Source: Planctomycetota bacterium (GTDB taxonomy: Bacteria; Planctomycetota; UBA11346). Taken from it: a stretch of DNA of 38,429 nt. The position numbers and the translations under genes are program-made. The notes beneath the pieces were generated by a model, which was not told the DNA's origin, did no database searches, and saw only the letters and a list, made by a program, of their open reading frames with translations. Shown here piece after piece: positions 22,748 to 29,449 of the stretch. The DNA lies in the NCBI GenBank assembly GCA_003136555.1, contig PLEW01000122.1:1-38429 (forward strand), written 5' to 3'. The first letter of the stretch is position 1. Each line of letters opens with the position of its first letter.

Positions 22748-23485
22748 ATGGATGGCATCCCCCTCCCGCTGTGGACTCTGGTCGGCGAGCACCTCCATGA
22801 GGTGCTCATGCGCTCGGCCGAGCACCTGGCGCTGTGCAGCGGTGCGCTCGCGGCCGCCTGCCTCCTGGGCATCCCTGCCGGCATCGAACTCGCCCGCCGA
22901 CCGCGCCTCGCCGAGCGCATCCGTGCGGCCAGCGCGGCCATCCACGTGGTTCCCAGCCTAGCGCTCCTGGCGGTGCTGGTGGTCGCGCTCGGCCGCCTGG
23001 GCGATGGTGCCATCCTCGTCGTCCTGACCGGCTCTGCGCTGATCCCGATCGCCCGCAGCACCATCGCCGGAATCTCCACCACCCCGATGCTCGCTCCGGG
23101 CGCTGGCGCCCCTCCACTCGCCTGCGCCACCCACGAGATCAGCTGGGACGGGGGGCTCCCGCTCGCGCCGCAGGCGCTGGTGGGCGGACTGCGCACCGCC
23201 ACCACCTGGACCATCGGCTGTGCGACCCTGTGCGCGCTGGTCGGCGGTGGCGGCCTGGGCGTGTTCATCGTCCGCGGCCTGGCCAGCGGCCAAGGCGGCC
23301 TGATCCTGCTGGGCGCCGTGCCGGTGGCGGCGCTGGCACTGGCCTGCGATGCGGCCTTCCGCCACCTGCTGCGGCGGCTCGATGGCGGCCAGCCACGCCC
23401 CCCCGCGACCGAGACCACCGAGACGGCCCTGGTCGACCCCATCATCGTCGATGACCCGGCTGCGGCCGGGGCAGCGACCCCATGA
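22748..23485 (+). CDS. Glycine betaine/choline-type ABC transporter permease (OpuBB/ProW-like)
   Basis: EHLALCSGALAAACLLGIPAGIELARRPRLAERIRAASAAIHVVPSLALLAVLVVALGRLGDGAILVVLTGSALIPIARSTIAGI...LRTATTWTIGCATLCALVGGGGLGVFIVRGLA. Confidence 0.85.
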   Translation: MDGIPLPLWTLVGEHLHEVLMRSAEHLALCSGALAAACLLGIPAGIELARRPRLAERIRAASAAIHVVPSLALLAVLVVALGRLGDGAILVVLTGSALIPIARSTIAGISTTPMLAPGAGAPPLACATHEISWDGGLPLAPQALVGGLRTATTWTIGCATLCALVGGGGLGVFIVRGLASGQGGLILLGAVPVAALALACDAAFRHLLRRLDGGQPRPPATETTETALVDPIIVDDPAAAGAATP

Positions 23486-27192: not shown

Positions 27193-27800
27193 GATGTCCG
27201 TCTCCTGGGTCCGTCCGCCGGAGTCGCCTCCCGGCGGACATGTGCACGCTGACGTGTCCAGATCCTGTCGCTGGGCGCAGTGGGCGAACGGGAGTTCTGC
27301 TGCGGCGCTCCCCACGACTGTACCTCAGTGCCCAGCGCGCGGCAGGTCGCCATCGTCTGCCTGGACTGCGGATGCTGGTACACTGCCGGCGAGCCATGGT
27401 CTCCCGCCGGGGTCACCTGGGATCGGACCCGCGATCTGGATCCTCGCTGGCCATGCAACTGATTACCTATGAAGCAGTTGGCGATTGCCACGAGCACCTC
27501 CATAGACGCGGGATATGCGCCTGTCTGCTCCACCAGCGGCTGTCGAGGGATGCCCCTGGACTGCTGCTCCCCCTCAGGACAGACCGGTGGGATGGTCTGG
27601 ACGGCAGCACCCGCTGGGGCCAGGACAGGTCGCGGTGGCAGACGGACGCTCGGCACAGCCTGCGGCGACGAACGACCTCTACTCCAGGGCTGTGCACGCA
27701 ACCGCCTCATGATACAGTAGATGCGCTGTCGCCGCCGGTGTAGGAGAACCCCACATGGTGGTTGCTAGACTTGGGGTCATCATCCTCGCAGGAGCACCCC

Positions 27801-28079
27801 ATGTTAACCCCACTGCGCATCATCCTGGTCACCGCCATCACCTGCTGCTTCGCGTCAGCAGGAACGACCGGTACCACCGATACGACCACTGGAACTGGTA
27901 CCGGCACCGGCACCACCAACAGCACGCCGCATCATCACCATCACCATCATCATCACCACTGGAAGCATCACCACCATCACCATCACCACCACCACCATTT
28001 CCAGCCTGCCGCGACCGGCAGCACGACTGGTGGTTCGACGGGCAGCACATCGGGCAGCTCGACTTCCACCTCGCACTGA
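27801..28079 (+). CDS. Secreted histidine-rich protein, 92 aa (H10-WK-H11)
   Basis: AGGAG 6 nt before ATG; MLTPLRIILVTAITCCFASAGTTGTTDTTTGTGTGTGTTNSTPHHHHHHHHHHWKHHHHHHHHHHHFQPAATGSTTGGSTGSTSGSSTSTSH*; signal peptide; mixed CAT/CAC codons. Confidence 0.8.
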   Translation: MLTPLRIILVTAITCCFASAGTTGTTDTTTGTGTGTGTTNSTPHHHHHHHHHHWKHHHHHHHHHHHFQPAATGSTTGGSTGSTSGSSTSTSH

Positions 28080-28093
28080 GCGCAGGCGTGATG

Positions 28094-28129
28094 GCGCATC
28101 CAGGACGGACACGTGCCTCCTGGATGCGC
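28094..28129 (+). terminator. Perfect 12-bp stem-loop downstream of His-rich gene
   Basis: GCGCATCCAGGA - 12-nt loop - TCCTGGATGCGC; no T-tract. Confidence 0.55.
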
Positions 28130-28243
28130 GGCTGATCCCTGCACCAGTCTTCACCACCGGCCAGCTGTGCTCCCGGTCTGACTGCTGAATTGGTGCAGGG
28201 TGATGCCGTTCTCCAGGACCAGGATGTTCCCTCAGGAGTGGTG

Positions 28244-29449
28244 ATGCGCGTCCGTCTATCACCCCGTCCCCTTCTTCATGCCTGCCTGGCGGTGCTGTTG
28301 GCCGGGGCCGGCCTCGCACCGTCACTGATCGCCGAGGAGGAACTGCACCTCGACAGCGGCATGATCGTCGTCGGTGACGTGATCAGCGAGACCCCGGATA
28401 CGGTGGTGCTGCGCACCCAGGCGCTGATCCGCCATACGCCGCTCGCGGCCACCCTGACCTACCGTCGCGATCAGATCGACAGCCGTCGCACGGTCCCCTC
28501 CTTCCACGACCAGTACCTCGCACGCGCACCGCTCTCCCCCGACACCGTCGAGGGCCATCTGGCGCTCGCACGCTGGTGCATGGACTGCTGCCTGGTCCCG
28601 GAGGCGCTGGAGAATGCCCAGCGCGCCGAGGCGCTCGACAGCTACAACCAGGTCGTCGCCCAGCTGTTCAAGGATCTCGGGTACGTCAAGGACCAGGGCC
28701 ACTGGGTCTCGGTCGATGACGCCGGATACAAGGCCAGTCATGGCGCCGCGCTCGCCACCGCGGCGAGCGTCCCGCCGGCATCGTCCGCAGCGACCGCGAC
28801 ACCCCCCATGGTGGCCGCGCGGCGGCCGCTCGCGCCCAGCCCGGCCCTCCCCGCCCGCGATGTCAGCGCAGCGCATCCGGCCCAGCCCGCCGGTGCGGCC
28901 AGCGACGCCGATACCGCGACACCGGTGGCCGTCAGCGCCATCCCGGCGGGCGTCCTGGCGGTCATGTCCGCCGCCGCTGCCGGGCATCCGCTCAGCGATT
29001 ACATCAGCGATACCGAGGACGGCCACCTGGTCTACAGCGCCGAATTCACCCGTGCCGATGGCATCGCCATGGAAGTGACGGTGACCAAGGAGGGCGCCCT
29101 GGTCGATGTCTCGCCTGAGGCCGACGAGGCGCCGACGGGCGCTGCCGGCTCATCCGGGAGCCCCGCACGGGTGACGGGCGCGCCCGCCACTGCGGCGGCC
29201 GGCGCGGACGTCGAGATCACCGCCCGCGCGGTCCCCGCCATCGTGCTCGCCGCCATGACCAAGGCCGCCGGCGGCGCGCCGGTCAGCGATTACGTCCGCT
29301 CGGTCGACGACGGCGAGGTGGTCTTCAGCGCCGAGTTCACCAACGCCGCGGGAACGGTCATGGAGATCACCGTCGGCCGGGATGGAACGGTACTGGATCT
29401 CTCCCCCGAAGCCGCCGATGAGGCGCCCAGCTCCAATAGCCGGCGCTAG
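28244..29449 (+). CDS. Secreted protein with two tandem PepSY-like repeats
   Basis: Signal peptide MRVRLSPRPLLHACLAVLLAGAGLAPSLIAEEE; repeats PAGVLAVMSAAAAGHPLSDYISDTEDGHLVYSAEFTRADGIAMEVTVTKEGALVDVSPEADEAP and PAIVLAAMTKAAGGAPVSDYVRSVDDGEVVFSAEFTNAAGTVMEITVGRDGTVLDLSPEAADEAP. Confidence 0.8.
   Translation: MRVRLSPRPLLHACLAVLLAGAGLAPSLIAEEELHLDSGMIVVGDVISETPDTVVLRTQALIRHTPLAATLTYRRDQIDSRRTVPSFHDQYLARAPLSPDTVEGHLALARWCMDCCLVPEALENAQRAEALDSYNQVVAQLFKDLGYVKDQGHWVSVDDAGYKASHGAALATAASVPPASSAATATPPMVAARRPLAPSPALPARDVSAAHPAQPAGAASDADTATPVAVSAIPAGVLAVMSAAAAGHPLSDYISDTEDGHLVYSAEFTRADGIAMEVTVTKEGALVDVSPEADEAPTGAAGSSGSPARVTGAPATAAAGADVEITARAVPAIVLAAMTKAAGGAPVSDYVRSVDDGEVVFSAEFTNAAGTVMEITVGRDGTVLDLSPEAADEAPSSNSRR

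Follow-up and report, generated by a model that had tools for sequence, protein, structure and literature searches.

A Double Polyhistidine Protein from a Planctomycete Genome as a Candidate Extracytoplasmic Metal Buffer

Background: Histidine-Rich Metal-Binding Proteins

Polyhistidine binds nickel, copper, zinc, and cobalt, and several natural proteins are built around this residue. Histidine in prokaryotic low-complexity regions is 33-fold enriched for nickel-binding proteins and 21.6-fold for metal-transport proteins (PMC6821194). The periplasmic protein SilE, 143 residues long and encoded within the sil operon, carries ten dispersed histidines and ten methionines; it is disordered and folds upon binding six Ag+ ions through His and Met side chains, as a ‘molecular sponge’ (PMC5008109). 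Hpn is a small, histidine-rich protein that stores nickel and buffers its toxicity, and both Hpn and Hpn-2 are cytoplasmic in a published model (PMC4671568). The Anabaena exoprotein ZepA, which has homologs in Planctomycetota, can feed zinc uptake (PMC10957091). In viper venom, secreted poly-His/poly-Gly peptides combine zinc binding with metalloproteinase inhibition (PMC12108757).

Here, we describe a planctomycete gene whose product consists largely of two uninterrupted histidine runs held between flexible arms. It is an orphan of rare architecture and known chemistry.

Architecture of the Gene and Protein

The ORF lies at positions 27801-28079 (stop codon included) on the forward strand of contig PLEW01000122.1, positions 1 to 38,429 of which were analyzed and are referred to as the window. 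Its ATG is preceded, at a distance of 6 nt, by the Shine–Dalgarno sequence AGGAG (27790-27794). Translation yields MLTPLRIILVTAITCCFASAGTTGTTDTTTGTGTGTGTTNSTP-H10-WK-H11-FQPAATGSTTGGSTGSTSGSSTSTSH*, confirming the initial annotation, which had described a 92-residue protein with a signal peptide, a Thr/Gly arm, H10-WK-H11, and a Ser/Thr/Gly tail; secretion is probable. The predicted Sec signal peptide, MLTPLRIILVTAITCCFASA (27801-27860), combines a single basic residue with a hydrophobic core and ends in A-S-A, compatible with signal peptidase I, with cleavage predicted before Gly21 (between ASA and G). A lipoprotein was considered and rejected: the residues preceding Cys15 and Cys16 are Thr14 and Cys15, incompatible with the lipobox [LVI][ASTVI][GAS]C, which is absent.

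The mature protein begins with a Thr/Gly-rich N-terminal arm of 23 residues (27861-27929), followed by the first histidine run, H10 (27930-27959; six CAT and four CAC codons), a Trp-Lys interruption (27960-27965), the second run, H11 (27966-27998; four CAT and seven CAC), and a Ser/Thr/Gly-rich C-terminal tail of 26 residues (27999-28076). After the predicted cleavage, the chain has a computed length of 72 residues and a mass of 7.6 kDa, with 22 His, 20 Thr, 11 Gly, 9 Ser, and no Cys or Met; its non-His residues include only one Lys and one Trp.

Thr, Ser, and Gly together account for 40 of the 72 mature residues and form two arms flanking the histidine runs, a composition that would suit a surface or matrix linker. 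The arms, possibly glycosylated, would then be the part that matters, and the histidines would provide pH-switched charge or metal-bridged cross-links. We find this highly improbable, given that the protein is very short and lacks an anchor, a sorting signal, or a repeat.

Evidence for a Genuine Gene

Several properties set the ORF apart from a fortuitous reading frame. Its histidines are encoded by 10 CAT and 12 CAC codons, in line with the 50/42 ratio in eight convincing genes of the window. Since this mixture matches local usage, the runs are neither a fresh microsatellite nor a pure trinucleotide repeat, and the argument against recent slippage put forward in the initial annotation holds. 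Elsewhere in the window, on both strands, the longest in-register CAY run is three codons. The codon-usage score ranks the His frame above the other five whether or not its His codons are counted, while the 26-codon C-terminal tail taken alone scores ambiguously. The ORF also satisfies a crude rule for signal peptides (basic n-region, hydrophobic h-region, and A-X-A), which selects only 0.7% of the ORFs when the window DNA is Markov-shuffled. The isolated long CAY run, the codon mixture, the frame score, and the signal-peptide rule together indicate that 27801-28079 is likely, although not certainly, a genuine gene.

Alternative accounts of the region were discarded. An overlapping forward-strand ORF (27755-28135) and a minus-strand ORF (27855-28325) both have poorer codon scores across the region and match no family. 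Duplication of a histidine block was considered because the two runs agree at 7 of 10 codon positions, a level that, with two synonymous codons, is indistinguishable from chance.

Profile searches against NCBIfam and Pfam returned no family above its curated cut-off. The top matches (NF007454, NF053667, PF10986, and PF04592) are all sub-cut-off and fall on low-complexity sequence, and the weak similarities to ZrgA, HypB, and ZnuA likewise coincide with the histidine runs, under their curated cut-offs. For instance, the ZrgA match (PF10986) scores 19.8 bits against a cut-off of 27.4, covers profile positions 76-100 of 161, and is confined to a His run; we therefore do not place the protein in this family.

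Genomic Surroundings and Host

The host genome spans 5.9 Mb in 253 contigs and is 86% complete. The host is a planctomycete, and its fragmented assembly suggests that only a metagenome-assembled genome represents it; planctomycete cytochrome and PSD domains found in the window are consistent with a planctomycete host. A second His run of this genome, H7G6, lies in a Ser/Thr-rich ORF of 225 codons on another contig (L035, C95, positions 1501-1521), for which a signal peptide is not evident.

The poly-His gene sits within ~0.9 kb between two neighboring genes. The leftward gene encodes a beta-lactamase-hydrolase-like phosphatase domain. The rightward gene (28241-29449) encodes an exported protein in which two repeats weakly resemble PepSY; the PepSY score is below cut-off, and no family scores above its own. 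This rightward protein has several partial relatives in the host genome (e.g., C233:8138-8593, 58% identity) and across the family. The wider contig carries a CLC channel, a glycine-betaine ABC system, a GH71-like protein, a TetR regulator, a sensor kinase, and planctomycete PSCyt/PSD and HXXSHH proteins. No metal-related gene was found among the Pfam-nameable genes of the window or the remaining contig, where several ORFs have no family. More specifically, Pfam identified no TonB receptor, metal ABC transporter, or Zur gene near the poly-His gene, and no efflux genes or sil or pco cluster on the contig. No RNA family was found in the window. ARAGORN called a 91-base tRNA-Glu at 23232-23322 on the forward strand, inside an ABC-permease-like ORF (22748-23485); Rfam reports no tRNA at that site, so this is probably a false call.

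Fifteen nucleotides past the stop codon begins a hairpin at 28094-28129 on the forward strand, with a perfect 12-bp stem (arms 28094-28105 and 28118-28129), a 12-nt loop, and a folding energy of -26.7 kcal/mol. Two perfect 12-bp stem sites occur in the window against 0.5 expected, and this one is found once in the genome. The terminator scan makes no call here because a U-tract is missing. The position of the hairpin 3′ of the gene makes a separate transcript, ending at 28094-28129, plausible. Thus, the stem-loop noticed in the initial annotation is real, while the deduction that the gene is monocistronic is only partly sound for want of a U-tract.

An Orphan among Its Relatives

Homologs were sought in 59 relatives, as the initial annotation had proposed, and every hit obtained there was driven by composition. 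None was found in the four genus genomes or the 23 family genomes, and the comparable architectures that do exist elsewhere are scattered and probably convergent. The best same-genus matches (G002:C80 and G002:C71) are out-of-frame ORFs that overlap other genes and are driven by composition; other His runs in the family are in implausible frames or are H7-H8 stretches within larger proteins. A syntenic copy is also lacking: no small His-rich secreted ORF lies beside relatives of either neighbor gene, the downstream neighbor having only partial matches in the genus (30-38%) and the upstream phosphatase a single one (42%, in G003). The intergenic DNA finds only short low-complexity matches elsewhere. 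On these comparisons, the gene appears to be a lineage-restricted orphan. Another member of the family encodes an apparently exported protein with GHPWHHHHHHHHGWYGHGF, a His run adjoining Trp (L039, G012:C630).

At the level of the phylum, the pattern (CAY)8-N6-(CAY)6 occurs in 4 of 392 genomes, including the one studied here; two of the remaining three contain pure CAT repeats, and the other (G189) an H18 run accompanied by several additional histidines. Likewise, (CAY)10 is present in 14 of 392 genomes versus ~10 for a reversed control, and nearly all of these runs are in implausible frames. The closeness of the two counts implies that many His-coding runs are simple repeats. G189, deposited as ‘Proteobacteria bacterium’ and placed in the phylum of the window, has its run (HHCDGEHG...H18-AEPGTIPP) near contig ends, and its H18 contigs (G189:C62 and C251; L245 and L248, also L145) may be pieces or variants of a single gene.

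These counts bear on the view that the ORF is non-functional, i.e., a frame open by chance where intergenic DNA is under no constraint, or a gene that is newly born, decaying, or derived from a repeat. Such an origin would agree with the orphan status, the missing syntenic counterpart, the unique DNA, and the near-background frequency of (CAY)10, and spurious ORFs are frequent in GC-rich DNA. However, the Shine–Dalgarno sequence, the signal peptide, a codon score higher than in any other frame, and the mixture of His codons point the same way, and we regard a non-functional ORF as unlikely.

Secreted Poly-His Mini-Proteins Elsewhere

A search for H8-XX-H8 in GTDB genomes, together with viral contigs, returned at least 177 loci, most of which, among the matches listed, are simple repeats or lie in implausible frames. 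Viral contigs contributed 59 loci with double His runs, none with a signal-peptide-bearing ORF in the His frame, and were set aside. At least nine loci encode proteins of 51-97 residues with a signal peptide and a run of at least 18 His in mixed codons. They come from Methylocystaceae (L079, L125, and L144), Methylosinus (L159), Mesorhizobium (L086, with an interrupted run, H11-K-H13), Acetobacteraceae (L150), and Nitrososphaerales (L080, L112, and L116). Among the matches listed, signal-peptide mini-proteins make up 9 of 83 mixed-codon loci in the His frame versus 2 and 3 in the shifted frames, which suggests that selection repeatedly gives rise to this architecture. Two further loci are similar in look: L093 (Nitrososphaera) is 5′-truncated, and L095 (Nitrosocosmicus) was not taken by the heuristic. 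Judged by eye, some loci resemble the His-rich loop of Acinetobacter CDF-type transporters; L073, L076, L104, and L170 are CDF-like transporters of this genus with H18-H24 loops of variable length in mixed codons.

The window protein falls within a minimal architecture class defined by a signal peptide, a length of up to ~100 residues, and at least 18 His in one or two mixed-codon runs. It shares with the nine or more analogues its small size, signal peptide, and long mixed-codon His run. In contrast, the analogues carry a mostly single run at or near the C-terminus, lack the Thr/Gly and Ser/Thr/Gly arms, and show no evident similarity outside the histidines. Common descent is neither shown nor likely, and independent origins are probable. 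No metal gene was seen beside those analogues whose neighbors were scanned. Methanotroph-related Methylocystaceae and ammonia-oxidizer-related Nitrososphaerales are both heavy copper users. It is conceivable, albeit doubtful, that these mini-proteins, the window protein included, form a class that has escaped description: genetically encoded metallophores or metal buffers that evolved repeatedly among both bacteria and archaea. No described class of this kind was found in the open-access literature, most subscription journals being outside that search. Low-complexity filters mask such sequences, so secreted poly-His proteins are easily missed in homology searches.

Proposed Function

We favor, with a probability of roughly 55%, the reading of a genuine gene, confined to its lineage, whose small product is exported through Sec and serves as an extracytoplasmic metal buffer or sponge. 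The signal peptide would be removed upon Sec export to leave the 72-residue, 7.6-kDa chain, predicted to be disordered. Its two His runs would form imidazole-dense chelating blocks, joined by Trp-Lys and displayed on flexible hydrophilic arms, that may loosely bind several nickel, copper, zinc, or cobalt ions at neutral pH and release them when the histidines become protonated. Buffering would take place in the periplasm or at the cell surface. The gene is presumably expressed, any of these metals may be the physiological one, and the protein could act in either direction, to detoxify or to scavenge.

The proposed sponge is supported by the start codon, Shine–Dalgarno sequence, signal peptide, and frame, by a codon mixture matching local usage, by the enrichment of histidine in metal-related low-complexity regions (PMC6821194), by the precedent of SilE (PMC5008109), and by the at least nine unrelated secreted poly-His analogues. 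Against it stand the lack of a homolog in the genus or family, the lack of a metal gene next to it or beside the scanned analogues, and the weakness of the ZrgA, HypB, and ZnuA matches, which are sub-cut-off and limited to His runs. As for the initial annotation, its extracytoplasmic metal-binding protein is probably secreted, whereas metal binding is backed only by composition and the established chemistry of polyhistidine; reading the protein as a metal binder was reasonable but is unproven.

Alternatively, the protein may be a secreted metallophore that is released, captures scarce zinc, copper, or nickel, and returns the metal to an uptake system. Predicted export without a recognizable anchor agrees with release, and ZepA sets a precedent for exoprotein-fed zinc uptake (PMC10957091). 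Yet a TonB receptor, a metal ABC transporter, and a Zur gene are all missing nearby, ZepA is a folded, two-domain protein of ~27 kDa with a wholly different composition, and the affinity of polyhistidine is just moderate for scavenging. This makes a metallophore improbable in our view. The moderate affinity of run-type His sites and the missing uptake genes are also why we prefer, weakly, a sponge or buffer over a scavenger.

A histatin-like antimicrobial, or an inhibitor that strips metal from the metalloproteases of competitors, would find its precedent in the poly-His/poly-Gly peptides of viper venom (PMC12108757). The mature chain, however, has a single Lys and a single Trp among its non-His residues, and export or immunity genes do not lie alongside, which leaves this idea with hardly any weight.

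If it is expressed, hardly any simpler metal binder for use outside the cytoplasm could be conceived: a pair of natural His-tags carried on flexible arms. The analogues scattered among methanotroph-related bacteria, a rhizobium, and ammonia-oxidizer-related archaea would then allow a direct test of whether a bare His run is enough to buffer metal outside the cell.

Comparison with Known Systems

Among described proteins, the closest in character are SilE and PcoE, which are also small and exported, with ligands along a flexible chain; the window protein resembles them through its heuristic signal peptide, predicted disorder, and proposed sponge role. Unlike in SilE, its histidines form uninterrupted runs, the mature chain has no Met, and it is not part of an efflux operon. 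As it has neither the conserved spaced His and Met residues nor a location in a sil or pco cluster, we do not assign it to the SilE/PcoE family. Similarly, the protein is very small and largely histidine, as are Hpn and Hpn-2 of Helicobacter pylori, which function in nickel storage and trafficking and are further marked by nickel binding and NikR-controlled expression, but its predicted signal peptide and different layout separate it from these cytoplasmic, signal-peptide-free proteins. ZrgA (PF10986), to which the weak profile match points, belongs to a zinc uptake family with a His-rich stretch. The Atheris venom poly-His/poly-Gly peptides offer another natural example of secreted, uninterrupted His runs beside a flexible Gly region, and they bind zinc (PMC12108757); unlike the window protein, they are eukaryotic and have a metalloprotease-inhibitor role, and there is no homology. 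By analogy, the best reading is that the window protein may work in the manner of SilE or Hpn while standing outside both families.
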